Source of the DNA: a virus
Virus record (IMG/VR): IMGVR_UViG_3300030085_005461
Coordinates: 1 to 21,885 of that record
Length of the DNA stretch: 21,885 nucleotides
Reading direction: 5' to 3' (one strand)
Part shown: positions 1 through 21,704 of the stretch, piece after piece
Layout of the letters: every line of letters begins with the position of its first letter
How positions within the stretch are numbered: the first letter of the stretch is position 1
Notes under the pieces: model-generated
Databases searched by the model: none
Told to the model about the DNA's origin: nothing
Seen by the model: the letters and a program-made list of their open reading frames with translations, nothing else
Made by a program: the position numbers and the translations under genes

Positions 1-1524
1 TTGGACAGGATCATTACCTTCAGCCTCAATTTGTGCTAATCTAAACTTACGTTTAGCATCTTCTCTAGATAAATCTCTATATTCATCATATTGATCTTCA
101 CTAAAATGATAAACATTATCATAAATCCAATCAGAAGGTACTAAACCTTGTTCTAATAATTGCTGAGATAATTCTGTTTTAGATTTAAGTAATTCTATTT
201 TTTCCTGTTCTAAAATAATAGAAGGTGCTGCCATATTTAAAGTAAAATTAGTTAATGTTTCATCAGTATACCCTTGAGTATATAAATGAACTAATGCAAT
301 TTTATTTAATTCTGATAATACAATTCTTTGTATTCTTTCTATTGTACGAGCAAATCTAATATCCTGTTGAGCTAGTGTAGCTTTTCCTTCTATACCCTCT
401 TCATAGCCTAAAAATGCTTTTGGTATTTTAAGTGCAGCAAATAGTTTACCTCTTAAATATTCAACATCTTGAATACCATCATACTGTAAACCAGGTGTGG
501 TTTCTATTTTTGTTGTTGCATCATTACCTCTAATTGGAATATAAAAATCTTCTAACATGTTTTGCATGTTATATTTTAAATTATATTCACCAGTTCTATT
601 ATCTTGGAATGGAGTTCTTTTTAATTGTGAAATAGTTTTTTGCATGAATGTTTCTACTTCATTAGGAGGTATAGAACCAATATTCATATAAAATATTCTT
701 TTTTCTGGTGCTCGTGCTATTCTATGAATTAACATTGCATCTTCCATTAAAACATATTGTTTATATAATTTACGAGCAGGTTCAATATAAGATCTACCAT
801 AAGGAAGATAATTAACATCTGAAATTAGTCTAAAATGGGCCATTTCATAGTTGTCAAAGAAAATACCAGGTTCATTTTCTAAATTAGCTCCTGCACCTGG
901 AACTGGATACATACCTGAACTTATATTATCCATACCATCAGGTGCATATCTATATCTTATTTCAGCTGGATTATCAGGATTGAAAGCTTCTTGTCTTTCA
1001 ATATGATAAGCTGTATATGGTATAACATTATATACACCATATTTTTCAGCTATTTCTAATTTTAGGAAGAAATCACCATATTTACACATTTGTCTAATCC
1101 ACATCCAAAGATTAAATTCAATATTTAATACGTCATAGAATAAATTATATAATATTTTTTGAATGTCTTCATTAGCACTTCTAATTTGAAGTACTTCTCC
1201 CATATCATTTTTTAATGTTGATTCATCAGATAAAATATCTAAAGCAGAAGCTATAATAGCATCTTGATCCATTAAATCGTACTCAGAGTATAATTGAGGT
1301 CTTAAATATTGATAATTAATATTAAATTGAGCCCCATATAAAGAAGAAGGACTTGTAGAATAAATTCTATTATATCTATCTAATAATGAATTAGTTTCGA
1401 TTTCTCCAGTAGCCTGTATTTTACCACTGTCAATTACTTTTACTTGATTACCACCTACATTTCTTATTATTACATCAGTAGAAAATAATCTTTTTAATCT
1501 TGAAAATATGCTTTTATCAGCCAT
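1..1524 (-). CDS. 20: Portal vertex protein, T4 gp20-like (3' partial)
   Basis: The frame is open for 508 codons from the ATG at 1524 to the window edge with no stop, so the C-terminus lies outside. The protein starts MADKSIFSRLKRLFSTD and has the features of myoviral portals: an N-terminal stretch on the order YNRIYSTSPSSLYGAQF, a segment MDQDAIIASALDILSDEST, then MWIRQMCKYGDFFLKLE, RLISDVNYLPYGRSYIEPAR and LAQQDIRFARTIERIQ. These match the conserved portal core known from T4 gp20. Portals form the dodecameric ring at the unique head vertex, dock the terminase motor and nucleate prohead assembly. It directly follows the terminase gene, with the late-promoter-like motif of 1537-1549 in the 28-base gap. 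T4 genes 18 and 19 (tail sheath and tube) are not between them, unlike in T4. The family is certain; the start is the only ATG close to the motif. Confidence 0.95.
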   Translation of the reverse strand, partial: MADKSIFSRLKRLFSTDVIIRNVGGNQVKVIDSGKIQATGEIETNSLLDRYNRIYSTSPSSLYGAQFNINYQYLRPQLYSEYDLMDQDAIIASALDILSDESTLKNDMGEVLQIRSANEDIQKILYNLFYDVLNIEFNLWMWIRQMCKYGDFFLKLEIAEKYGVYNVIPYTAYHIERQEAFNPDNPAEIRYRYAPDGMDNISSGMYPVPGAGANLENEPGIFFDNYEMAHFRLISDVNYLPYGRSYIEPARKLYKQYVLMEDAMLIHRIARAPEKRIFYMNIGSIPPNEVETFMQKTISQLKRTPFQDNRTGEYNLKYNMQNMLEDFYIPIRGNDATTKIETTPGLQYDGIQDVEYLRGKLFAALKIPKAFLGYEEGIEGKATLAQQDIRFARTIERIQRIVLSELNKIALVHLYTQGYTDETLTNFTLNMAAPSIILEQEKIELLKSKTELSQQLLEQGLVPSDWIYDNVYHFSEDQYDEYRDLSREDAKRKFRLAQIEAEGNDPVQ

Positions 1525-1552: not shown

Positions 1553-3124
1553 TTAGAAGAGCCATCTAATGTCTTCTTTATCATTCCCAAATTTTTGTTC
1601 GTAAGGATTTTTATTTGTTTGATTACTTCCATATCCTAATTGGTATGGTGATCTATTAACAGACATATTACTTAATGATTTTTTAGTAATATCTATTCCT
1701 CTTTGTCTAAATTTTAAAGCCGTATCTCTAATATACATTGCTATACCAAAAGCCATAACTAAATCATCATTATAACCTCCTTGAGCTTCGGGTCTTCCAT
1801 TTCTCCAAATAAAAGTTCTCATTTCTTCTAATAAACGTTTAGATTGAAATGTAACACCTTTATCACTTAAATATTCCTGAAATTTACCTACTACCATAGG
1901 TCTAGTCCTTGAAGACATAGTAAAACCAGGAACCATTCTACTAGTATCCATATATTTTTCAAAATAAGAATTGGCATTTGGACTTTCTGTTTTATGAGAA
2001 TAGTATAAATTAGGATAAGCTCTATCAATACAAACTTGAATAGTTGCCCAACCAATATTAGCATTTTCAACTACTAATAATGCTTCATTATATTCTGTAG
2101 CTAAACCAACTAATAAATGTCCATATTCTTTAGTTCCAATTTGACCCTTATATTCGGCAACTTGTACATTACTTTCAATATCAATAACATGACATGCAGA
2201 ATAATCTTTACCATCGCCTCTAGCAACATCAGCTACAACCATATAATTTCTAGTATAGTCTGGTGATTCCCAAACCCATAAATTTTGATCAACTCCTCTT
2301 CTTTCCAATGGATCCTTTATAAATGTTTTTTCGTAATATTCAATATACTCAGGATAGAACACAATGTCACCGGATGTTGAAAAATCACAGTCACATTCTT
2401 GAGCTGCCATTCTAGGATCACCTAATAATTCATCTTGTCGTTTTCTCCAAGCATCATCTCTTTCTGGATGAACAAACCAAGGTAATTTTATAGGCAAAAA
2501 ATCATTTTCTGATGCTTCTGCTCTTGTCCAAGTTTGATGAAACCAATTACCAGTACCATAAGGAGTACTTAATGCTATACAGCCCCCTCCAGTAGCAAGT
2601 GTTTGTTGAGCTGATGCCCATATTTCACCTATATTTTCAATAAATGCCGCCTCATCAATTAATAACAAGGATACTGCTTCTGATCTACCAGCATCACTAC
2701 TTGCAGATGTTGCCTTAATTTGTGAACCATTTATAAGCCTTAAATTTAATTTATTATTTTCAGCTGCATCTACTTTTAACCAGGAAGGTAAATTTTCATA
2801 CATAAATTTTACCTTTGTAACCATATTTTTAGCGGTTTCTTGTTTTGTTGCTATACAAAGAATATTTTTATCTTTAGCAAATAACATCATCCATAAAGAA
2901 TAACCCGCAGATAAAGTTGATAAACCTAACTGCCTTGATTTTAATACTATGGAATAGGGGTTATCTCTAAACAACTTTAATACTTTTTCCTGAAATGGAT
3001 ATAGATTAAATTGAATTCTACCTCTTTGTGGATGTTGGATGTAACAGTATTTTTTCATAAAATGTACAGGGTCCTTAGCACATTTTAGATACTCAGATCT
3101 TATTACTTTTTTTATTTCCGACAT
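1553..3124 (-). CDS. 17: Terminase large subunit, T4 gp17-like
   Basis: This is the DNA-packaging motor and headful nuclease, 523 residues (T4 gp17 is about 610). The N-terminal ATPase shows a Walker A region SRQLGLST at residues 63-70, a Walker B LLLIDE at 153-158 and an STP coupling motif at 186-188. The Walker A lacks the usual Lys before Ser/Thr; the Lys at 62 or Arg at 64 may serve, as in other terminases with deviant P-loops. The C-terminal RNase H-like nuclease shows VADVARGDGKD (Asp 299), VVEN (Glu 353) and YNDDLVMA (Asp 453/454), the expected acidic triad. The start ATG shares a base with the stop codon of the upstream signal-peptide gene (TAATG), suggesting translational coupling with the lysis-like pair. 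The protein acts in the cytoplasm on the portal. Identification is secure. Confidence 0.96.
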   Translation of the reverse strand: MSEIKKVIRSEYLKCAKDPVHFMKKYCYIQHPQRGRIQFNLYPFQEKVLKLFRDNPYSIVLKSRQLGLSTLSAGYSLWMMLFAKDKNILCIATKQETAKNMVTKVKFMYENLPSWLKVDAAENNKLNLRLINGSQIKATSASSDAGRSEAVSLLLIDEAAFIENIGEIWASAQQTLATGGGCIALSTPYGTGNWFHQTWTRAEASENDFLPIKLPWFVHPERDDAWRKRQDELLGDPRMAAQECDCDFSTSGDIVFYPEYIEYYEKTFIKDPLERRGVDQNLWVWESPDYTRNYMVVADVARGDGKDYSACHVIDIESNVQVAEYKGQIGTKEYGHLLVGLATEYNEALLVVENANIGWATIQVCIDRAYPNLYYSHKTESPNANSYFEKYMDTSRMVPGFTMSSRTRPMVVGKFQEYLSDKGVTFQSKRLLEEMRTFIWRNGRPEAQGGYNDDLVMAFGIAMYIRDTALKFRQRGIDITKKSLSNMSVNRSPYQLGYGSNQTNKNPYEQKFGNDKEDIRWLF

Positions 3125-7369: not shown

Positions 7370-7456
7370 TTACTTACAGCATTTACTCTCACACCAACCA
7401 AGACATACTTTGTTAAATGTAATTTTACAAATTGTTTTACAAATTTTTTCTTTCAT
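7370..7456 (-). CDS. 28-residue Cys-rich microprotein
   Basis: An ATG at 7456 opens a 28-codon frame ending in TAA at 7370. The product is MKEKICKTICKITFNKVCLGWCESKCCK split here as MKEKICKTICKITF plus NKVCLGWCESKCCK. It has six Cys in a CxxxC, CxxxC, then CC arrangement and six Lys. Support for reality: its ATG shares a base with the stop of the upstream leader gene (TAATG), as at seven other junctions here, and it is followed by a hairpin and a clean terminator. It could bind a metal (Zn or Fe-S) or form disulfides; there is no signal peptide. Function is unknown and the length is short enough that chance cannot be excluded. Confidence 0.5.
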   Translation of the reverse strand: MKEKICKTICKITFNKVCLGWCESKCCK

Positions 7457-7806
7457 TATAATTTTATTTCTATTTCAACATAATCAGATCCAATATCCCA
7501 ATCATGATCAAATCTTTTAGCTAATTCCATAAATGCATGATCTTTACCTATAAATTCTTCAATATTATTTTCATTATAAAAATCATCAATATCATCTTCT
7601 CTATCATCATATGAAACAGAAAAAGATACTTTTCCATCTTCAACAAAACCGTCATAATTACCTGATTTGCTTTTTAAATAAGCCATAGCACCATCTTCAT
7701 CAGTTTCAATTTCCATTTTAGCCGAACCTAAATTAAAATTTTTTGTTTCTACTTTTTCAAATAGTCTGCCTTCAGCTAAATATTTTCTTAAATCAAAGTT
7801 ATCCAT
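7456..7806 (-). CDS. Small acidic head cargo protein with MDNFDLRKYLAEG leader (copy 1)
   Basis: The 116-residue acidic protein begins MDNFDLRKYLAE followed by Gly, a predicted head-targeting leader ending at a Leu-Ala-Glu site (residue 12). A second site-like LFE follows at 15-17. The rest is rich in Asp/Glu and looks like a small alpha/beta domain (for example VSFSVSYDDREDDIDDFYNE). It has no similarity to the bodies of the other leader proteins. It is 3 bases downstream of copy 2. Packaging in the head is inferred from the leader; the cargo function is unknown. Its acidity suggests a DNA mimic or inhibitor role as one possibility, which is speculation. Confidence 0.65.
   Translation of the reverse strand: MDNFDLRKYLAEGRLFEKVETKNFNLGSAKMEIETDEDGAMAYLKSKSGNYDGFVEDGKVSFSVSYDDREDDIDDFYNENNIEEFIGKDHAFMELAKRFDHDWDIGSDYVEIEIKL
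7768..7806 (-). repeat. Leader repeat, copy 1
   Basis: This 39-base stretch encodes the leader and start codon. It is nearly identical at DNA level to 8179-8217 and 8736-8774 and clearly related to 9276-9308, while the coding sequences beyond it are unrelated. Confidence 0.8.
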
Positions 7807-7809
7807 TTT

Positions 7810-8217
7810 TTATACTGTAAAAGTAAAGAATTTTAAATCTTTACCTGCTATTTTTATATCTTCAGGAGGATTACCAAAATCATTTTCAAATTTTGTTTTG
7901 TCCTCTAAAGCATCATAATCATCTTTAAACATGTAAGTTATACCTACATCACCTTCACCTTGACTAACTACTGCTCCAACTATATTATATTCTTCACTAT
8001 CTTCTGTGCCTCCTATATCTCGAAAAGATTTAACTTGATCAATTTCTTTACTTATAAAATCATTATAATCAACTTCTTCCTCATCATCTAGAAATTCATC
8101 ACGCATGTGTTGTTTTACATCTTCAACATTAGCATTTAAAAATGAGATTAATTCTGGGTATTCTTGTTCGTATAGCTTACCCTCAGCTAAATATTTTCTT
8201 AAATCGAAGTTATCCAT
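7810..8217 (-). CDS. Small acidic head cargo protein with MDNFDLRKYLAEG leader (copy 2)
   Basis: The 135-residue protein starts MDNFDLRKYLAEGKLYEQEY. A predicted cut after Glu 12 (LAE before G) and another possible after Glu 17 (LYE before Q) would leave an acidic body. The body contains DEFLDDEEEVDYNDFI and a C-terminal beta-like part (GITYMFKDDYDALEDK, IAGKDLKFFTFTV). It is unrelated to copies 1 and 3 beyond the leader. Its ATG shares a base with the stop of copy 3 (TAATG). No function is recognised. Confidence 0.65.
   Translation of the reverse strand: MDNFDLRKYLAEGKLYEQEYPELISFLNANVEDVKQHMRDEFLDDEEEVDYNDFISKEIDQVKSFRDIGGTEDSEEYNIVGAVVSQGEGDVGITYMFKDDYDALEDKTKFENDFGNPPEDIKIAGKDLKFFTFTV
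8179..8217 (-). repeat. Leader repeat, copy 2
   Basis: This is the second near-identical copy of the leader-coding DNA. It differs from copy 1 at only a few positions. Confidence 0.8.
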
Positions 8218-8774
8218 TATCTTTTTAGTTTTAAAATTGATTTAGCTAATTCTTCTAAATATTCATTAGCTTCTTTATCATCTAATTCTTCTAAATCACG
8301 TTTAATTTCGTCAATGTAGTAAGAATCATCTTGATTTTCATTTAATTTACCTTCTTGTTGATAATAATCATCTCTATCACCACCATAAAATTGACCATAA
8401 TCAGTTCCATACTGCATAGCTTCTTTCCTCATTACTTCTTCAGGTACTTCAGTACCTTTAGGGTATTCTTTAAATGTATCTTCATGACCTTCAACCATAT
8501 CAAAGTAATCTTCTACATCATACCATTCATGACCTTGTTCATCTGCTAAATCCATTATTTCTTGTGTACCATAATGGTATGTATTAAAATTAGGATCAAC
8601 AATCACTCCATTTACTAATGAAAATATCTCAGCATTTGGTCCTGCTTCTTTCATTTCTTTGTCGTAGTCGTAATCATTACCCTCTATGAATTTAAATTTA
8701 GTTCTATCTACAACAACTTCTTGTAGGTATATTTTACCTTCAGCTAAATATTTTCTTAAATCGAAGTTATTCAT
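8217..8774 (-). CDS. Head cargo protein with MNNFDLRKYLAEG leader (copy 3)
   Basis: The 185-residue protein begins MNNFDLRKYLAEGKIYLQE. LAE before G at residue 12 and YLQE at residue 19 are site-like. The body is very rich in Asp, Glu and Tyr (YDYDKEMKEAGPNAEIFSLV, WYDVEDYFDMVEGHED, YGTDYGQFYGGDRDDYYQQE). Next comes LNENQDD, another site-like point, and a helical C-terminal 40 residues ending in basic KLKR. Its first 8 bases overlap the cupin-like gene. The function is unknown; the leader implies packaging. Confidence 0.65.
   Translation of the reverse strand: MNNFDLRKYLAEGKIYLQEVVVDRTKFKFIEGNDYDYDKEMKEAGPNAEIFSLVNGVIVDPNFNTYHYGTQEIMDLADEQGHEWYDVEDYFDMVEGHEDTFKEYPKGTEVPEEVMRKEAMQYGTDYGQFYGGDRDDYYQQEGKLNENQDDSYYIDEIKRDLEELDDKEANEYLEELAKSILKLKR
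8736..8774 (-). repeat. Leader repeat, copy 3
   Basis: This is the third near-identical copy of the leader-coding DNA. Its first codons differ so that residue 2 is Asn rather than Asp. Confidence 0.8.
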
Positions 8775-9015
8775 TTATTCTAATTTTTAAATCTGTTGAA
8801 CCTTTATGTATTCTATGAATACGATGTCTGTTTATAAATATACAATCACCTTTTGATAATAACAAAGGTAATTCATTATCAAATTGAAATTTCCATCCTT
8901 TACCTTCTAATATTTCAATATTTCTATCTTCATCATCCATATGCCAAATTAAATCCATAGGATCTACGTCTTTTGAAAATATTCTTATATTAGAACTATC
9001 TTTATATGGTTTCAT
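8767..9015 (-). CDS. Small cupin-like protein
   Basis: The 82-residue protein has the strand pattern of a minimal cupin barrel: LIWHMDDEDRNIEILEG, then GWKFQFDNELPLLLSKGDCI, then FINRHRIHRIHKGSTDLKIRI. A Gly-Asp turn and a His in the last part (RHRIHRIHKG) are typical of small cupins, though the metal-binding His set is incomplete. It lacks the leader carried by its neighbours. It overlaps the 9012-9308 gene by 4 bases (ATGA) and the 8217-8774 gene by 8 bases, so it is tightly coupled within the cluster. The role is unknown; a small-molecule or sugar-binding function is a guess. Confidence 0.6.
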   Translation of the reverse strand: MKPYKDSSNIRIFSKDVDPMDLIWHMDDEDRNIEILEGKGWKFQFDNELPLLLSKGDCIFINRHRIHRIHKGSTDLKIRINE

Positions 9016-9308
9016 TTTTCTAATTCTGGATGGAATTTTATGTAAACTTCTTTGGCATCATCTTTTATTGATTCACCATCAACTTCTACTTCAGCTGGAT
9101 AAACGCTAGCTGCGGGTCCATACCAATAATTTATTTTATATCCCCCTTCTTCTGTTAATTCAACAATTAAGCCTCTTTGATAATCTTTTTCTTCAGCTTG
9201 TAAATAAACTTTTTTACCTCTAGGTAAAATTAGTTCTGCCTTAGATATTCTATTATTATCCTCTTCTTTTTGTTCTTTTAAATATTTTCTTAAATCAAAA
9301 TTTTCCAT
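9012..9308 (-). CDS. Head cargo protein with MENFDLRKYLKEQ leader (copy 4)
   Basis: I place the start at the ATG at 9308, giving 98 residues beginning MENFDLRKYLKEQKEED. This ATG shares a base with the stop of the next gene upstream (TAATG), and the product aligns with the other leader proteins. An in-frame TTG at 9314 is not needed. The predicted cut is after Glu 12 (LKE before Q). The body (KAELILPRGKKVYLQAEEKD, YKINYWYGPAASVYPAEVEV) looks like a small beta-rich domain. The function is unknown. Confidence 0.65.
   Translation of the reverse strand: MENFDLRKYLKEQKEEDNNRISKAELILPRGKKVYLQAEEKDYQRGLIVELTEEGGYKINYWYGPAASVYPAEVEVDGESIKDDAKEVYIKFHPELEK
9276..9308 (-). repeat. Leader repeat, copy 4 (diverged)
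   Basis: This fourth leader-coding copy matches the others over the FDLRKYL codons but differs at its 3' part (Lys-Glu-Gln instead of Ala-Glu-Gly). Confidence 0.7.
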
Positions 9309-10282
9309 TACCAAAAAGTATTCATATTAGCACCTAAACCTAACAGTGAGGCATATCTAGGTAGTCTACATGACCAATATCTTGCTGTAGTCCTATCATT
9401 AGCTGTTTTACATCTATGACGAGCAGCAAATGCTTTTCTTGCTTTAGGATTTCTAATTTTAGCTTTTAATCCACCTGAACCAAATGTAACTTTTTTAATT
9501 TTTTTAGTTTTAGGATCTCTAACATAAACATAGTATGCCTTAGGACCTCCTCTTTTTGGTTTTCCAATAGGTGGGTCTTTCTTTTTCTTTTTTTTCTTTT
9601 TTGCTTCTGTAAGTGCTTGTTTTAAAATTTCTTTAATTTTGATTTTTTTCTTTGGATCAGCTAATCTACCAAATAAATTTTGGTCAATATCTATTCCTAA
9701 AGCAGATTTACCAGTAATAGCACTAGAAAGAGAATCAATACTAACATCTAAATCTTCAAGATCCTGTTCTCTACTAGTATCACCTTTTTTCATGTCTTCT
9801 AAAGCTCTTAAAATATCTTTTAAAACGTTTAATCTTTCTTCTGGTGTTTCCTTTAAGGTTTTTAAATAAGGTTCTTTAGATCCATCTTTATAAATAACAG
9901 TCCAATTTTCTGGGTCATTTCCTTTTTTATCTATTTTTTCTACTTCTTTTCCTGCTATGGTTAGTTTTTCATTTAACATAGGTAAATCTAAAGGTACTGC
10001 TTCACCTTCAAATAATCCAAATTCACCTAAATGTGTTTTAATTAAATGTTCATCTTCCTCGCATAAATCAATTATGTCTCTGGAATACATTTTTCTAGCT
10101 TCTCTAATTAAATTTAAATGAGCATCTGAACCAATTCTAAAAACTGATTCAAATAAAGGAATATTTTTATCTAAATGGTATTGTAAATTTTCAGATAGTA
10201 AAGATTTTACCTTTACTTTACCTTCTGTAAGTAAGGGGCCCCTTATTGATTCGCAAGTATTACATCCACATTTTTGACACAT
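9308..10282 (-). CDS. Multi-segment head protein with N-terminal Cys cluster and basic YWSC tail
   Basis: The 324-residue protein starts MCQKCGCNTC, with four Cys in ten residues that could bind metal. LLTE before G follows at residue 20. Further site-like motifs are LFE before S (45), LFE before G (92), LNE (105) and ALTE before A (226). After the last comes a run of eight Lys and a basic domain (residues about 240-315: KAYYVYVRDPKTKKIKKVTF, ARKAFAARHRCKTAND, ARYWSCRLPRY). I have the impression that this tail recurs in other phage head proteins. I infer a packaged, DNA-binding core protein that may be cut into several pieces. An AT-rich motif sits just upstream, so it starts the transcript of the small leader proteins. 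Confidence 0.7.
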   Translation of the reverse strand: MCQKCGCNTCESIRGPLLTEGKVKVKSLLSENLQYHLDKNIPLFESVFRIGSDAHLNLIREARKMYSRDIIDLCEEDEHLIKTHLGEFGLFEGEAVPLDLPMLNEKLTIAGKEVEKIDKKGNDPENWTVIYKDGSKEPYLKTLKETPEERLNVLKDILRALEDMKKGDTSREQDLEDLDVSIDSLSSAITGKSALGIDIDQNLFGRLADPKKKIKIKEILKQALTEAKKKKKKKKDPPIGKPKRGGPKAYYVYVRDPKTKKIKKVTFGSGGLKAKIRNPKARKAFAARHRCKTANDRTTARYWSCRLPRYASLLGLGANMNTFW

Positions 10283-14552: not shown

Positions 14553-14566
14553 TTATTTATAAATAT
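14553..14566 (-). promoter_or_regulatory. Promoter-like motif with exact TATAAATA upstream of 14540 gene
   Basis: The minus strand reads ATATTTATAAATAA, beginning in the stop codon of the lipoprotein gene and ending 12 bases before the ATG at 14540. It contains the T4 late consensus TATAAATA. Confidence 0.55.
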
Positions 14567-15360
14567 TAATTAATTCCTCTAGAATTGCCTCCTCTTGAAC
14601 TATTATTACTGGGTCTTGAGCTATTATTATAACTCGGGCTAGGGCTATAAGAAGGTTTAGAATAGTTATTAGAAGGTCTTGAATAATTGTTAGAAGGTTT
14701 ATAATTATTATTATTACTAGGTTTATAATTATTATTACTAGGTCTGTAATTATTATTAGGTTTTATTCTAATGTTATTACTATTACTATTAGGTTTATAT
14801 ATATTATTATTATTGTTTGGTTTATAGTTATTAATAAGATTATTTATTGCATTATTATTAACAGGTCTATTGCTTACATTTTCAATCCTATTTACCATTA
14901 TTCTATTGGATATATTTCTATTATTAAATGTTAAACTACCCCTTCTACTTGCATTATAAACAACATTATAACTAGGATTATTAAAAGGTCCTTGATACCA
15001 ATTATTATATGGTCTCCAAGGTCTTAAGTACCAATCCCAATAATTCCAAGGTCTGTAGTAATATGAATAGTAAGGATAATGATATGAATAGTAATTACCA
15101 AAACCATAATAAAAATCAAAATCCATCCAAAGTGGTCTATAACCCCAATAACCATAATTATGACCCCAATAAAATCTAGGTCTCAAAGGCCTAAAATCTA
15201 ATGTAATAGTATTAAATTCTAAACTTGTAAATAAATTGACAGAGTCTTTTTTTATTTCATCTAAGTAAATTACTTCGGTTTTAACAGGCTGATAAGTAGA
15301 TAATTGATAAGAACCACAACTAGTAAGAAGTAGTATTAATAATGAATATATTAACTTCAT
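14566..15360 (-). CDS. Tyr/Trp-rich outer-membrane-type lipoprotein with Asn/Pro/Ser repeats
   Basis: The 264-residue protein has a lipoprotein signal peptide (MKLIYSLLILLLTSC, Cys 15 followed by Gly-Ser). Residues about 55-125 are extremely rich in Tyr, Trp and Pro (YYGFGNYYSYHYPYYSYYYR, PWNYWDWYLRPWRPYNNWYQ). Residues about 165-264 are low-complexity Asn/Pro/Ser/Lys with KPSNNNNY-like units. Such a protein would be lipid-anchored in the host envelope, and after synthesis could alter the cell surface, for example superinfection exclusion or lysis. That role is inference. It lies inside a cluster of head genes, overlapping nothing, one base after the 15361-16254 gene. The lipobox and composition are clear; function is unknown. 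Confidence 0.75.
   Translation of the reverse strand: MKLIYSLLILLLTSCGSYQLSTYQPVKTEVIYLDEIKKDSVNLFTSLEFNTITLDFRPLRPRFYWGHNYGYWGYRPLWMDFDFYYGFGNYYSYHYPYYSYYYRPWNYWDWYLRPWRPYNNWYQGPFNNPSYNVVYNASRRGSLTFNNRNISNRIMVNRIENVSNRPVNNNAINNLINNYKPNNNNNIYKPNSNSNNIRIKPNNNYRPSNNNYKPSNNNNYKPSNNYSRPSNNYSKPSYSPSPSYNNSSRPSNNSSRGGNSRGIN
14605..14830 (-). repeat. Low-complexity tandem repeats in lipoprotein gene
   Basis: Imperfect repeats encode units like NNNYKPSN, NNYSRPSN and NNYSKPS across about 75 codons. The DNA is a run of short AT-rich units, prone to slippage and length change. Confidence 0.75.
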
Positions 15361-16254
15361 CTATTTCTTCTTTTTAAATTCGGATTTCTTTGTATTTTTT
15401 ACAAACTGTTTACCTTTTTTACTACCACGTACTTTTTTAGCTACGGTAGCTTTTCTTTGAGCTTTAGTAAGTGATTGAGCTTTTTTTCTAGGCAAACATC
15501 TAGTAGTTGGTTTACCTTTTTTCATTGTTCCACAAGGGCCAGCTATGTTACCTGATGTATTAATTCTTACCCAATCTTCTTTTTTAAACCAATCACGTAG
15601 TGATTCTAAAACAGCTAATTTATAAGCTGAACCAAATGGTGCTGATTTGCCCTTATGTTTTTTCTGTGCTTCGGGATCTATATTTTCTTTCATAGGGCTA
15701 AGATAGTCACTAATTTTTTTCATAGCTTCTTCGGCTGATATATTTCCTCCCATCCAGTTATTATGGACATAATACATAACATCTTCTACATCAAAATTAC
15801 TACCTACATTAATTCCAACATTTATAGCTTTTTCTACATCTTCATTATAGTCACTTAAACTAATTGATTCATTCATTTGGCTTCTTAAAAGTGATTTCCA
15901 GGTAAGCATTACTTCAGCTACTCCTCCTATAAATTTACGATTGTTTAATTCATTTTTAAATTTACCAAATAATGCTCTTAAATCCTCTCTAAATTCAGCT
16001 ACTGCTCCTGTTGGGTTGAATGGTTCTGAATCTGGAGTGGGTTCTGGTGGGTTTTTTAGGAAACCGCTATAACGGGTAACTTCATTTACAGATCTCATAT
16101 CATATAATTCAGCTAATTGATCTGCTAAATCATCTAGTACTTTATCAGATGGAATTTCTAATACATTCATTGCAAATTCCTCTCTACCTATACTTTTAGC
16201 TAAAGTAGTTAACCTTTCTCTACTTGAGGGTCCTATTCTTTCGTTTAATGCCAT
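15361..16254 (-). CDS. Head-block protein with basic GPCGT/RCLP tail
   Basis: The 297-residue protein starts MALNERIGPSSRERLTTLAK, with LNE at residues 3-5. The body is helical (residues 15-190), including a GNISAEEAMKKISDYL segment. The last 80 residues form a strongly basic module: DWFKKEDWVRINTSGNIAGP, then CGTMKKGKPTTRCLPRKKAQ, then Lys/Arg-rich sequence ending in KKKK. Cys 241 and 253 may pair or bind metal. This module resembles tails I have seen in other phage and viral proteins, but I do not assign a family. The gene joins the 16254-16925 gene by TAATG. I infer a packaged DNA-associated protein. Confidence 0.65.
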   Translation of the reverse strand: MALNERIGPSSRERLTTLAKSIGREEFAMNVLEIPSDKVLDDLADQLAELYDMRSVNEVTRYSGFLKNPPEPTPDSEPFNPTGAVAEFREDLRALFGKFKNELNNRKFIGGVAEVMLTWKSLLRSQMNESISLSDYNEDVEKAINVGINVGSNFDVEDVMYYVHNNWMGGNISAEEAMKKISDYLSPMKENIDPEAQKKHKGKSAPFGSAYKLAVLESLRDWFKKEDWVRINTSGNIAGPCGTMKKGKPTTRCLPRKKAQSLTKAQRKATVAKKVRGSKKGKQFVKNTKKSEFKKKK

Positions 16255-16946: not shown

Positions 16947-17527
16947 TAATCTTCTTTTGACTTATAACTTTTTAAATACTTAACTACATTTTCAGTATAT
17001 TCATTTACTTTATCCTCATTTAAATTACCAACCCAATTTTCAACTTCTCCATTTTCTGATATAAATGATTTATTACTTTCAGTTAATTTTTCTTTTACAT
17101 ATTGTTTAAATTCTTCTATTCTTTTATCAATAATTAAATCATTAATATTATCATAATGTTCCTTATACTTTCCTTCATTTTTTAGTTTATCTTCGTATTT
17201 AGCAAAGCAATTAAGACAAAATCTGTGAATATTATAATAAGGTTTATCAGCCCTATTCATTAATTTTTTACATTTAGGGCATAATAAAGGAACTAAGTGT
17301 AATTTTTTAGCTTTATCTAATTTAGTAATATTTTGTTTGATACCATCTTTTATAGTCCAAGTGCGACCATCGCTTTCCCAAACATCCCCTTCTTTATAAT
17401 GCTTATCAGGGCTAGAAAAACCAACACTAGAACGTGTTTTTTCTCCGTATTTACCCTTAACTAAATTTCTAAGACGTTCTACATCTTGTTTTTGAAATTC
17501 TTTTTTTAAAACTGTATCCTTGCTCAT
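16946..17527 (-). CDS. Zinc-ribbon protein, unknown function
   Basis: The 193-residue protein has a central module: KEGDVWESDGRTWTIKDGIK (residues about 45-64), then LCPKCKKLM and HRFCLNCFAKYEDKL (Cys 83, 86, 104, 107), forming a CxxC...CxxC zinc ribbon. A Lys/Glu-rich helical C-terminal half follows. It lacks an N-terminal LxE leader; MSKDTVLKKEFQKQDVERLR is plain helix. Its start overlaps the stop of the 1127-residue gene by 4 bases (ATGA). The pattern looks like a family found in other T4-like phages, but I cannot name its function. It may bind nucleic acid or a head protein. Confidence 0.7.
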   Translation of the reverse strand: MSKDTVLKKEFQKQDVERLRNLVKGKYGEKTRSSVGFSSPDKHYKEGDVWESDGRTWTIKDGIKQNITKLDKAKKLHLVPLLCPKCKKLMNRADKPYYNIHRFCLNCFAKYEDKLKNEGKYKEHYDNINDLIIDKRIEEFKQYVKEKLTESNKSFISENGEVENWVGNLNEDKVNEYTENVVKYLKSYKSKED

Positions 17528-20500
17528 AAACCTAATTTTTTAAGATCATTGATGACTTGTTCGGCTGAAGTATATACAATTCCAGTTCCTCCTTTAGCTT
17601 CCCATCTACTAACTGTATCAGCTCTATCATCAATTAATATATCATTTTTTGTTAATTCGGATTTAACTTCGTGTTTTTCTTTAGCTTTTTTAAAATTAAT
17701 ACGAGGTTTACCTCCAAGTAAATCACTATGATTTCTTACCCAAAGTATTTTACCTAAATAAGATTGTTTTTTAACTGATGGAGCTGTTAATAATTCATAA
17801 TTATATTTTTTTACATAATCCACTAATTTTTTAGCACCAGGCATTTCTGGGATGCCTACCCAAAAGCTAACTTTATGGTCCTCATCTATAAAATCCCAAA
17901 ATTTATTTTTACCATATTTTTCTTCAAATTGTCTTGGTTGCATACCAGACAAATCCTCAAAACGTTTATCAAAATTAGCTATAACTCCATCCATATCTAG
18001 ATAAACTTTATATTCGCTTTCTTGTTCTTCTAAACCCCTAGCTAATTCCCTAGCATAAGCATTTAAACCAAAAGGATCCTTATTTTTGCTTTCAAATAAA
18101 GGTACATTTATTTTAGGTGCTCTTTCTCTCCATAAATTTTTAATATCTTCTCTATCTTTAGGTGATAATTTAAGTTTAAACTCTAAATAGTCATCAATAA
18201 CTTTACCTAAAGGTTGCCTTGATTTTTTAGCTTTTAAATATAATCCTTCTAAATTAGCATCTATTTCCTTTTCTAATTTATAATAATCAGGAGTACCTAA
18301 TTTTTTTCTCCAAATTTTCCACCAAGGTTTTTTACCTGATTCTAATTCTTTTCTTTTATCCTGATCTGATTTCATTTCTTTACCTGCCTTAACATTAGGC
18401 CCCGCTTGCATTAGATGTGAGATTTCATGTCGAATTATATTTCTTAAATCCATAGATATTTCTTCCCACTTTTTAGGTAATTCTGTACCATTTATTATAA
18501 ATTTAAGTTCTACCTCAGGTACAAATGGTTTAGCAACACCACTATCTTTATATTTAGCATTATTATCAAAAATAGCTTGAGCTTTATAAGTAAAATCTAA
18601 GAATGGGTAATCTAATTCTTTACCTGGGCCAACTTCTACTTCAAAATAACCTTTTCTTTGTTTATCTTGAAAATCACCTTTCCATGCATTTAAAGTAAAT
18701 CCAGCTAATTTAGTTACTAAACTATCATATTTACCCTCAGTTAATAATTCTTTTAATTCTTGTTTATTTAAAGAATCTGTCCAACTTCTAAATAAAATAT
18801 TACCTGTTTCATATGCTTCTCTTTCTAATTGTTCTAAATAATCATCCTCATTTACATCAGTAGTGTTTACATTATGTAACCTATTTTCATTATTTTGATG
18901 AACGTGTACTAATTCATGAGCATAAGATCTTAAAATATCTTTGGGATGTCTTCCATAAGTAAATAAAACTATATCATTGGTATCGGGAACATAATAGGCT
19001 GTTTTACCAAATACATCCATACCATTTTCAATAGCATCATGTACCATTTGAACTTTAGGTAATGGAGTTAAAGCCATCTCATTATCCATAAAATATTTAG
19101 TTAAAGATGCAATATAAGGTTTAAAGTTATAATTACTAGAATCTATTTGTTCATTTAAGTTTTTCTTAGATTTTCTAACCATACCCCATTTAGGTAATTT
19201 TTTGCCCTTATACTCACCATCCATTTGAAAATTTCTAACAGTATATTTTTTACCATCTTTATCTTCTAAAGATAATTTATATCTGTTAACACCTTCTCTA
19301 CTATTTTTTATAACTTTTAATTGTTTAGATTTTTCTAATTTTTTACCACCTAAAGGAAAACCTTTGGGTGCTCTTAAAACATCACCGGGCATTACTTGTC
19401 CTGAATAGTTAGATAAATCTATACCAATTTCAGTTAAATCTCTATAACTAGTACCTGATGGGAAAGATTGCATTTTTCTTTTAGCTGCTTCTTTAGTTTT
19501 ATATGGACCAAATTCTTGTCTTATACCAGGTGAAAATGGATTATCTTGCATAAAATAAAATTTACCATCTTTTTTATAAATGGATCTATATCTATAGCCC
19601 GATTTTCCAAAACCTTTTTTCCCTTCTTGAAAATGACCTACACTTTTATAAGTTATAGGTTTATCAAAACTATCCTTTCTTCTTGTAGCTTGTCTTTCAA
19701 ATTCAGCTCTAGTAAGTTGTTTATCTGCTAATCTTCTTTTTATTTCTTCTGCTGATAGAAATTTATATAGCAATCCTCTTTTTCTCTGGGAGCTTAAATC
19801 TCTTAAAAGTCGTAGTGTATATTCATATTCATTTCTTTCTTCATTCCATTTAACTTCAACAACTTCAACCGGGAAGTCTCTTTGTTCTTTATAACCTCTA
19901 TATGTTAATACTTTACCTTCTAAAAATTCAGGTGGTACAGGACCAGCTACTGTAACTCTATTTTTCCAAATACTAATTGGTTTTGATTCTTTAAGTTTTT
20001 TCAAACGTTGAGTTTTTTTCTTAGATGCCTCTTTACGTTTTTTAATATATTCAAATCCTGATCTTAATTTCTTTTTCTTAGCTGGGTCTTTAGTTCTACC
20101 TAAAGCTGCTCTTACTCTTTGATGAATTAAATTAATAATCTGAGATTGTCTAGCATGTGATTTAGCTTTAAATGATTTTTTATTTAAAGTATCTACTATA
20201 TCTTGCCTAGTACTAAATTTAATACCAACTGTATCTTTTGGATCTTCGTCTGTGTAGAGTCTACGTCCTGATCCTTTAGGTTTTTTACCAGTACCTTTTT
20301 TAGGATCCTTTTTCTTTTTTCTACCTTCTGTTACTTTATCAGATATCATTTGATATACTTGGTCTACTTCTTCATCTTTTAACTCATCAGGTAAATATGG
20401 TATTAATTTTTCTTTACTTATTTTACCTGCTTGTCTAGCAGCAGTACCAGATGAACCTCCCTTAGTAATTATAGTTCTTAATTCTAAGTTAGGATAATTA

Positions 20501-20907
20501 TCTAATTTTGTAGTTCTAGCAGCTATATCTTTAAAATCATCTTCATTACCTTCTCTCGCACCTAAAATAAATAAAACATCCTCATCAGGATTATTTTTAG
20601 CGTAATCATAAGTAGCTTTTATTGGAGGTACACTACTATATTTTATATTAATATTAGCTGATACTGGAAGGTATTGTTTGTAAATATCCCATATTTGAAT
20701 AGATTCTTCAGGAGTAACACCATCTCTTTCTTTACCTCCTATATTAATAACAAATTCATCTATATTAGGGTTTTCTTCTATAGCCTGTTTTACAACCTTA
20801 AAATGGCCTTTTGTTGGTGGTTTAAAACCTCCTCCATATACTGCTACTACCTTCTTTTTTTCCTGTTCAGGTAACAAATCCTTAATTAATTCATATACTA
20901 AACTCAT
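17524..20907 (-). CDS. 1127-residue multi-enzyme polyprotein (NTase, two HExxH, HAD nucleotidase)
   Basis: Domains in order. Residues 15-194: cytidylyltransferase-like fold (VVAVYGGGFKPPTKGH, TKGH at 32-35 as the (H/T)xGH motif; SSGTAAR at 152-158), like NMN or phosphopantetheine adenylyltransferases. 195-307: basic helical part (HARQSQIINLIHQRVRAALG). 308-586: beta-rich unknown. 587-724: HELVH at 664-668 with a later Glu in EREAYE, a zinc-protease pattern. 725-939: HEISH at 827-831 with KEIDANLE downstream, a second such pattern. 962-1127: HAD-type 5'(3')-deoxyribonucleotidase (DMDGVIANFD at 971, LLTAPS, LIDDRADT). Site-like motifs LPE|Q (14), VTE|G (194), LKE|S (307), LNE|Q (586), LLTE|G (724), LFE|S (939) and LEE|Q (961) fall at these boundaries. 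I infer a head-packaged polyprotein cut by the prohead protease. Domain calls are firm except the proteases' activity; the processing is inference. Confidence 0.85.
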   Translation of the reverse strand: MSLVYELIKDLLPEQEKKKVVAVYGGGFKPPTKGHFKVVKQAIEENPNIDEFVINIGGKERDGVTPEESIQIWDIYKQYLPVSANINIKYSSVPPIKATYDYAKNNPDEDVLFILGAREGNEDDFKDIAARTTKLDNYPNLELRTIITKGGSSGTAARQAGKISKEKLIPYLPDELKDEEVDQVYQMISDKVTEGRKKKKDPKKGTGKKPKGSGRRLYTDEDPKDTVGIKFSTRQDIVDTLNKKSFKAKSHARQSQIINLIHQRVRAALGRTKDPAKKKKLRSGFEYIKKRKEASKKKTQRLKKLKESKPISIWKNRVTVAGPVPPEFLEGKVLTYRGYKEQRDFPVEVVEVKWNEERNEYEYTLRLLRDLSSQRKRGLLYKFLSAEEIKRRLADKQLTRAEFERQATRRKDSFDKPITYKSVGHFQEGKKGFGKSGYRYRSIYKKDGKFYFMQDNPFSPGIRQEFGPYKTKEAAKRKMQSFPSGTSYRDLTEIGIDLSNYSGQVMPGDVLRAPKGFPLGGKKLEKSKQLKVIKNSREGVNRYKLSLEDKDGKKYTVRNFQMDGEYKGKKLPKWGMVRKSKKNLNEQIDSSNYNFKPYIASLTKYFMDNEMALTPLPKVQMVHDAIENGMDVFGKTAYYVPDTNDIVLFTYGRHPKDILRSYAHELVHVHQNNENRLHNVNTTDVNEDDYLEQLEREAYETGNILFRSWTDSLNKQELKELLTEGKYDSLVTKLAGFTLNAWKGDFQDKQRKGYFEVEVGPGKELDYPFLDFTYKAQAIFDNNAKYKDSGVAKPFVPEVELKFIINGTELPKKWEEISMDLRNIIRHEISHLMQAGPNVKAGKEMKSDQDKRKELESGKKPWWKIWRKKLGTPDYYKLEKEIDANLEGLYLKAKKSRQPLGKVIDDYLEFKLKLSPKDREDIKNLWRERAPKINVPLFESKNKDPFGLNAYARELARGLEEQESEYKVYLDMDGVIANFDKRFEDLSGMQPRQFEEKYGKNKFWDFIDEDHKVSFWVGIPEMPGAKKLVDYVKKYNYELLTAPSVKKQSYLGKILWVRNHSDLLGGKPRINFKKAKEKHEVKSELTKNDILIDDRADTVSRWEAKGGTGIVYTSAEQVINDLKKLGL

Positions 20908-21704
20908 GAATTTAAAAATTGTTTTATTTTAGATTGTGCTTCTTCTTTGGATACAGAATTATCTATTATTTCTTTTGCTCCGTCATCACTTAGTAAAGCT
21001 TGGATTTGAGCATTAGTTTCAGCCTTTTGTTTTTTTCTTTTTTCTATTTGAGCAGGAGTTTTAGGTTTAGTTCCTGTAGGTTTAAATGGGTCAAGATATT
21101 TTTTAATAATATCAGCTATATTTTTTAATTTTTCATCTTGTAATGTATTTGCTACAGATACAAAATTATTACCAAACATTTGTTTATATGTTTCAAAATT
21201 TTTAGTTACTGATAACCAAGTGCTCATTACAATAGCGGGTGCTAAACTTCTATCTTCACCACCTGATTTTTCAAATCTATCTTGGTTTTGTTTTAATGAA
21301 CGTTCTAAATCAGTATAAACATAAAGCATAAACACATCATATCCAGCTTCCTCTAATTCATTTTTTAATATTTCTGTTTGTTTAACTGATGCTGCAGTTC
21401 CATCTAAAATAAATGATTCTTTACCTTGAATTGTAGCTGCAACTTTACCTTTGAACTCTTTATTTGCAGCAGCCATAGCTTTTGCAGATTGGCTTCTTTC
21501 TTCAGGAGTTGCATTTTTTAAATCAAGTGATACATTTGCTTTTTTAAGTAAATCAATATAAGTATTATCTACATTAAGGACTTTAAGATTACCTAAATCT
21601 AATCCACTTAAGACAAATCCTTTACCAGCACCAGGAGCACCAGCTAAAATAATAGCTTTAGGACCATTTAGTTGTTCAATTAAAAGATTATAGAGATTGA
21701 CCAT
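20904..21704 (-). CDS. Zeta-toxin-like P-loop kinase with LIE|Q leader
   Basis: The 266-residue protein starts MVNLYNLLIE followed by Gln, a short leader ending in a Leu-Ile-Glu site at residue 10. The P-loop domain follows at once: AIILAGAPGAGKGF (Gly 22 to Gly 29), a DNTYIDLLKK acidic segment, ESFILDGTAASVKQTEIL and YDVFMLYVYTDLERSLKQNQ. This is the layout of zeta-toxin/chloramphenicol phosphotransferase-like kinases, some of which phosphorylate UDP-sugars. No antitoxin gene is next to it. A Lys-rich linker (residues about 212-232) leads to a helical C-terminal end. The leader suggests the kinase is packaged in the head and delivered to the cell with the DNA. The fold is clear; substrate and delivery are inferred. 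It overlaps the 1127-residue gene by 4 bases. Confidence 0.8.
   Translation of the reverse strand: MVNLYNLLIEQLNGPKAIILAGAPGAGKGFVLSGLDLGNLKVLNVDNTYIDLLKKANVSLDLKNATPEERSQSAKAMAAANKEFKGKVAATIQGKESFILDGTAASVKQTEILKNELEEAGYDVFMLYVYTDLERSLKQNQDRFEKSGGEDRSLAPAIVMSTWLSVTKNFETYKQMFGNNFVSVANTLQDEKLKNIADIIKKYLDPFKPTGTKPKTPAQIEKRKKQKAETNAQIQALLSDDGAKEIIDNSVSKEEAQSKIKQFLNS

Follow-up and report, generated by a model that had tools for sequence, protein, structure and literature searches.

A 1127-residue protein encoded by an uncultured virus is probably a polyprotein that travels as cargo in a T4-like head and is cut after (L/I/V)xE by a prohead protease of family S77. Its gene lies in a stretch of 21,885 nucleotides, called the window here, which comprises bases 1-21885 of a 30,493-base contig (IMG/VR record IMGVR_UViG_3300030085_005461). 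An original prediction, made from the sequence of the window, had placed a nucleotidyltransferase, a basic module, a beta-rich region, two HExxH segments and a HAD nucleotidase in this one chain, and these domain calls hold in structure and profile matches and in alignments. The modules are listed below; a hyphen after the glutamate marks the predicted cut, and the borders are those at which relatives recombine.

17524..20907, minus strand: polyprotein gene, 1127 amino acids, from the list of open reading frames (ORFs) and related loci
20866..20907, minus strand: N-terminal leader, residues 1-14, MSLVYELIKDLLPE-Q, a predicted capsid targeting sequence with the first predicted cleavage site at E14
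20326..20865, minus strand: module 1, NadD/PPAT-fold nucleotidyltransferase, residues 15-194, ending VTE194-G; border 194 (n=107)
19987..20325, minus strand: module 2, basic and helical, residues 195-307, ending LKE307-S; border 306 (n=36), linker 308-325
19624..19986, minus strand: module 3, beta-rich, residues 308-428, ending FQE428-G; border 431 (n=10)
19429..19623, minus strand: module 4, small beta module, residues 429-493, ending LTE493-I; border 493 (n=5), high-scoring segment pair end (n=12)
19150..19428, minus strand: module 5, beta-rich, residues 494-586, ending LNE586-Q; border 582 (n=94), linker 560-589
18736..19149, minus strand: module 6, MP1, HExxH metallopeptidase-like, residues 587-724, ending LTE724-G; border 720 (n=71), linker 715-726
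18091..18735, minus strand: module 7, MP2, HExxH metallopeptidase-like, residues 725-939, ending LFE939-S; border 940 (n=64)
18025..18090, minus strand: 22-residue leader-like spacer, residues 940-961, SKNKDPFGLNAYARELARGLEE, flanked by two sites; linker 936-963
17527..18024, minus strand: module 8, HAD 5'-3' deoxyribonucleotidase, residues 962-1127; matches phrog_2643 and structure 2i7d

Module 1 reads as an adenylyltransferase with the NadD/PPAT fold. Module 8 matches phrog_2643 with E=1.8e-23, has 2i7d as its top structural match, and shows a HAD fold with a DxDG motif. The two HExxH motifs, AHELVHVHQ and RHEISHLMQ, are conserved in the alignments of MP1 and MP2, in which a downstream glutamate is invariant. 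A sequence search of the PDB with these two modules gave no relatives, no zincin was among the fold matches listed, and Pfam returned only sub-threshold matches on the whole protein. In a search of 50,697 phage records, MP1 and MP2 were found only in those of Flavobacterium phage vB_FspM_immuto (immuto).

The strict motif [LIVM]xE[GSANQ] occurs at E14, 45, 194, 307, 586, 724, 939 and 961, and thus at all seven places (14, 194, 307, 586, 724, 939 and 961) where cleavage had been proposed. The eighth match, IEE45-N, which the original prediction had also mentioned, lies inside the nucleotidyltransferase. The suggestion that matches within domains can be told apart by their P1' residue stands only in part: LTE493, with I at P1', proved to be a module border in relatives, as did FQE428, which was absent from the earlier list. 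The density comparison suggested in the original prediction failed, as (L/I)xE has 12 matches versus 12.4 in shuffled sequence, so the case rests on the placement of the motif at borders. The strict form with G/S/Q at P1' gave 7 matches versus 2.9 in shuffles (P=0.024).

It is among the relatives that this placement becomes apparent. A first search yielded 36 related loci, and 160 more, overlapping with these, were collected through both HExxH modules; their loci and contigs carry L-numbers here. An alignment of all fragments misplaced MP2 and the beta modules and was set aside in favor of two half-chain alignments. Borders were defined solely from alignment stops, without use of the motif. 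The order of the modules varies from relative to relative; some occur twice, are inserted or are missing, some have foreign modules between them, and some are encoded by separate genes. In L007 the order is nucleotidyltransferase, MP1-MP2, beta, beta and HAD, with module 3 as a tandem duplicate; in L019 three genes encode nucleotidyltransferase plus MP1, HAD, and MP2. Projected on the window protein, the borders fall at 194, 306, 431, 493, 582, 720 and 940, compared with motif glutamates at 194, 307, 428, 493, 586, 724 and 939, which bears out the earlier claim that the motif sites adjoin domain borders. Among 110 non-redundant relatives, [LIVMF]xE lies within 12 residues of 383 of the 423 well-supported borders, where 157 were expected; for the strict form the numbers were 255 versus 58.6. 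Control motifs (xD, xK, shifted spacing, charged P3) were found at 0.5-1.5 times expectation, and the reversed motif, which shares letters with the true one, at 2.3 times.

The edges of single modules give a sharper picture. MP2 starts with G(K/R)YD, and [LIVMF]xE stands directly ahead of it in 68 of 69 unique N-terminal flanks. The information content of these flanks is 0.4-1.0 bits at P11-P4, 3.0 at P3, 2.2 at P2 (mostly N) and 4.1 at P1; the P1 residue is glutamate in 68 of 70 MP2 junctions, amid flanks that are otherwise unconserved. The regions upstream form 11 clusters without detectable similarity to one another, 65 of the 92 belonging to a single cluster, MP1. Motifs are likewise found near the start of MP1 in 103 of 119 flanks and near that of HAD in 78 of 80. 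At the other edge of MP2 the sequence depends on what follows: where the module ends the ORF it closes with ...LNLPKF and the motif is absent (0/15), whereas where another module follows it closes with ...LPLxE-G/N/S and the motif is always present (42/42; nominal Fisher P 4.5e-14). Asparagine is preferred at P2 of internal junctions (42 of 70 MP2 flanks) and not in leaders; this may reflect the specificity of the S77 protease of this phage group.

These edges bear on one alternative, that (L/I/V)xE-G/S is a favored linker or helix end in a multidomain enzyme that stays full-length. E, G, S and N are common in linkers, the motif is no denser than in shuffled sequence, and the virion RNA polymerase of phage N4, a polyvalent protein, is packaged uncut (PMC5512222). 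Yet xD and xK are not enriched at the borders, P1 is almost invariant within unconserved flanks, and the motif also ends leaders. Its loss where nothing follows is unexplained by an uncut protein, and we regard this alternative as unlikely.

Exchange of modules at the motif could also mean that it marks a DNA-level recombination hot spot through which cassettes are shuffled, with no part in proteolysis. Against this, GAA and GAG are used 61:7 at the motif, compared with a background of 0.89:0.11, and 70 junctions are encoded by 45 different 12-mers; codon use thus follows that of the genes, and the constraint acts at the protein level. Standalone genes, moreover, retain the motif as the end of a leader where there is no junction at all. 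The codon-use test led us to reject the recombination site, which we consider highly improbable.

Structure prediction, made with AlphaFold on two half-chains, agrees with cleavage between folded units. The predicted local distance difference test (pLDDT) score is below 50 at residues 192-211, 308-325, 369-440, 482-504, 560-589, 715-726 and 936-963 and in shorter stretches, and all internal border sites are located within such a stretch or at its margin. The six internal sites of the original prediction are accordingly found in or beside low-confidence linkers, and not buried in predicted folds, which would have spoken against it. Motif matches within the folds of the nucleotidyltransferase and HAD (45, 51, 996, 1009 and 1021) lie in blocks with a pLDDT of 84-94.

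The protease itself is found in the relatives. Immuto is an isolated phage of 160 kb with a T4-type head region that includes a gp20-like portal, an S77 prohead protease (QQO91880; PF03420, E=8.9e-35) and a gp23 capsid protein. Two genes of the window place its contig next to immuto, in which the prohead protease follows the portal:

1-1524, minus strand: gp20-like portal, incomplete at the contig end, 61% identical to the immuto portal
1553-3124, minus strand: T4-type large terminase, 60% identical to the immuto terminase

The original prediction would have been contradicted by a lack of gp21-type protease in the genome. An S77 protease is encoded by immuto, by 5 contigs in a first set of 27 relatives and by 22 in a second set of 42, among them all eight of at least 90 kb; most of the others are fragments. 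An S77 search of the window contig gave no match, which has no bearing on absence, as this contig breaks off within the portal gene and the control genomes were silent as well. Genes 183-184 of immuto, annotated only as NMN (nicotinamide mononucleotide) adenylyltransferase and 5' nucleotidase, are direct homologs of the window protein (37% identity over 58% of the query) in the same genome neighborhood. Their predicted sites include VMAE702-G and RLPE565-G in gp183, and LLE15 or LEE16 in gp184. The gp23-type capsid protein of immuto contains KQIVSE59-AN, and the motif is also found near the ends of its protease and scaffold candidates. We take VSE59-A to lie near the position of the T4 gp23 cut, comparing the two by eye. 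In the head region of immuto 25 of 33 genes have the motif at residues 9-26, with 11.6 expected; in the early region 47 of 135 do, with 50.3 expected.

The cuts could instead be made by the chain itself. Phage polyvalent proteins often have zincin-like metallopeptidases, for which auto-processing has been proposed (PMC5512222), and the window protein has two HExxH modules that might cleave it at the joints, either inside the head or once injected. The motif, in contrast, is that of T4 gp21 (PMC9026906). It ends the leaders of genes without a metallopeptidase, is present in the capsid protein, scaffold candidates and protease of immuto, and is enriched 1.64-1.78 times at the recombination borders of proteins that lack both metallopeptidase modules, where the xD and xK controls gave 0.82-1.04. 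Self-processing is therefore improbable as the source of these sites, and cleavage by the S77 protease remains the preferred reading.

Leaders provide the link to the head. Standalone MP1, MP2, HAD and kinase genes begin with a leader of 8-20 amino acids that ends in the motif, such as MIKLSYLLNE, MKYIKMFESFTLNE, MQLTLSDILFE and MISLVQLLKE. MP1 stands alone in L150, L155, L164, L202 and L203; HAD does so, with a leader of its own, in immuto and at about 35 loci. HAD homologs of Caulobacter phage Cr30, Agrobacterium phage Atu_ph07, Xanthomonas phage XacN1, Synechococcus phage BUCT-ZZ01 and Sinorhizobium phage Phosso have no leader and begin directly with the catalytic motif. The T4 IPIII leader is MKTYQEFIAE. 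Targeting by such a sequence depends on residues 4 and 7, and processing on residues 8 and 10; an Asp at position 10 of IPIII prevents processing while targeting persists (PMC9026906). The window leader, MSLVYELIKDLLPE-Q, has I8 at P7, L11 at P4, L12 at P3 and E14 at P1, and is thus hydrophobic at T4 positions 4 and 7. Hydrophobic residues at P7/P4 reach 0.78/0.71 in leaders versus 0.16/0.36 in internal junctions, which retain P3 and P1. By class, the values are 0.92/0.74 in polyprotein leaders, where P3 is also kept, 1.0/1.0 in the NFDL leaders described below, and only 0.43/0.14 in HAD leaders, partly from taking the first of several motifs.

Several points weigh against a cleaved head cargo. 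The window contig stops before the protease locus, and immuto 183 has a different N-terminal domain at its start. The loose motif is short and, as such, not over-represented. The border counts are phylogenetically non-independent, sequences not being independent events, and their P-values are nominal. Low pLDDT at 369-440 and 482-504 may stem from a scarcity of homologs and not from disorder; the beta-rich alignment is shallow, and low confidence there is weak evidence. Finally, some 10 related polyproteins start at the nucleotidyltransferase and leave no room for a leader. In nine of 10 leaderless polyproteins an internal DPFGLNxYARELA-type peptide was found by pattern, and the tenth has a similar one by eye. 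As DPFGLNxYARELAxxLEE, this peptide recurs between two motif sites in many loci, and it corresponds to residues 940-961 of the window protein; it may be an internal targeting signal.

The sequences show where the modules meet, that they are exchanged at these places, that the motif stands there under protein-level constraint, and that relatives have the protease; from this we infer targeting, cleavage, packaging and ejection of the chain, and roles of its enzymes in the host, along the following lines. The leader of about 14 residues, MSLVYELIKDLLPE, would direct the protein into the prohead core in the manner of the targeting sequence of the T4 internal proteins. During head maturation the S77 (gp21-type) protease would cut after (L/I/V)xE. 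Inside the head this would take off the leader and free the nucleotidyltransferase, the basic and beta-rich modules, the two HExxH modules and the deoxyribonucleotidase from one another. The freed modules would leave the head together with the DNA and have their effect at an early stage of infection. With such cut sites, cassettes could recombine between phages, fuse, or become standalone genes with their own leaders. We find it likely that the chain is a phage counterpart of a viral polyprotein, in which one leader and serial sites bring exchangeable enzymes into the head in stoichiometric amounts, that the protease sites act as joints for cassette recombination, and that leaders keep both targeting and processing residues, while internal joints keep only those for processing.

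The modules of relatives include ADP-ribosyltransferase, ParB-like, plastocyanin, Fe-superoxide dismutase and zeta-toxin kinase, a cargo that, by analogy, fits early-infection effectors. Fe/Mn superoxide dismutase and a plastocyanin-type copper protein are polyprotein modules in L169:1485-5402 and L035:9992-13207, and are unusual as cargo of a phage head. In L023, L028 and L030 a Tox-ART-HYD1-like ADP-ribosyltransferase module (sub-threshold in Pfam) stands beside a NadD-like adenylyltransferase, possibly an NAD-linked pairing. A second polyprotein family, without HExxH modules and with almost no Pfam match, occurs at L077:8095-10605, L078:8028-10190 and L073:8095-10095; its leader is M(K/E)DIQKIKEFFSKP..E, and motif sites are present at many of its recombination borders.

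Each part of this arrangement has a precedent. Polyvalent proteins of phages and conjugative elements are shuffled chains of many unrelated enzymatic domains, with zincin-like peptidases, ADP-ribosyltransferases and ParB-like domains among them, that are thought to enter the host with phage DNA; their processing is ascribed to embedded peptidases, either zincin-like or C-terminal and assemblin-like (PMC5512222). Several disparate activities in one chain and domain shuffling between elements are seen here as well; the differences are the S77 (T4 gp21-type) motifs at the joints and the targeting-like leader. The T4 internal proteins IPI-III and Alt have a short hydrophobic leader with (L/I)xE at its end, in the register of P7, P4, P3 and P1 seen here; they are effector cargo, a role predicted for the window protein, and go with an S77 protease, as found in its relatives. 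They are single units trimmed at one end, whereas here internal sites lie between several folded modules. T4 gp22 and further core proteins are cleaved into numerous fragments, most of which are discarded (PMC9026906). In the giant phages phiKZ and SPN3US diverged gp21 homologs process numerous proteins of the head and of ejection, cutting after xxE. SPN3US is the best-mapped case: 13 of its 14 mapped sites serve to take off an N-terminal propeptide and the other a C-terminal propeptide (PMC10052503); no mapped cut is reported to separate enzyme modules. In the Dar system of phage P1 the large multidomain DarB has an N-terminal capsid targeting signal (PMC9024508), but splitting into modules at serial prohead-protease sites is not known there. 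Immuto 183-184 differ from the window protein in that HAD is a separate gene with its own leader. A literature search, with most subscription journals outside its scope, turned up no enzyme modules set apart by prohead-protease sites, and the titles and passages it covered included no proteomics of immuto virions. Polyvalent proteins, T4 capsid targeting and S77 proteolysis are thus known; what appears to be undescribed is their combination in a recombining polyprotein that the prohead protease cuts.

The main genes of the window all lie on the minus strand. From right to left they are a zeta-toxin-type kinase, the 1127-residue ORF, small genes, the large terminase and the start of the portal. 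A PADLOC scan found nothing. Other genes with leaders are:

20904..21704, minus strand: zeta-toxin/AAA kinase, adjacent to the polyprotein gene (PF06414, E=1.3e-15), with the 10-residue leader MVNLYNLLIE-Q
7456-7806, 7810-8217, 8217-8774 and 9012-9314, minus strand: four small genes with the leader pattern (D/N/E)NFDLRKYL(A/K)E-(G/Q)

The kinase has about 100 homologs, nearly all with a leader of the same kind, and in L168 it is fused ahead of the nucleotidyltransferase through the joint LVNNILNE; its sequence suggests that it belongs to the same class of cargo as the polyprotein. The four small NFDL-leader genes (7456..9314) are, by their leaders, probable further head cargo. The paralogous leader family MxNFDLRKYLAE is found on otherwise unrelated small proteins, at 7456-9314 (minus strand) and in immuto genes 179, 194 and 195, and is likely a common capsid-targeting leader of this phage group. 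Among the presumed cargo genes, 14566-15360 (minus strand) encodes a lipoprotein-like protein with a repetitive C-terminal half rich in Asn, Ser, Tyr and Pro. A short peptide, NxxGKAAPFGSGYxxLNE, recurs ahead of junctions in many loci (e.g., L055, L036 and L037), and the window gene at 15361-16254 has a peptide of this type (KGKSAPFGSAYK). Immediately to the right of the window, L001:959-3131 holds three consecutive related genes of about 230-258 amino acids that resemble lectin-type beta proteins; a run of N lies inside the first of them.

In this large T4-like phage family of aquatic bacteria, one chain probably becomes a head-packed set of enzymes delivered to the host. The motif and the leaders amount to a sequence-readable rule for recognizing head-bound proteins, and the places where they are cut, in a very common group of uncultured T4-like phages, and by such a rule many "hypothetical proteins" could be read as injected effectors. 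A natural format for packaging multiple cargoes is thereby named, and the isolated phage immuto allows it to be tested directly. If true, phages use serial maturation cleavage of enzyme polyproteins, as is known from eukaryotic viruses.

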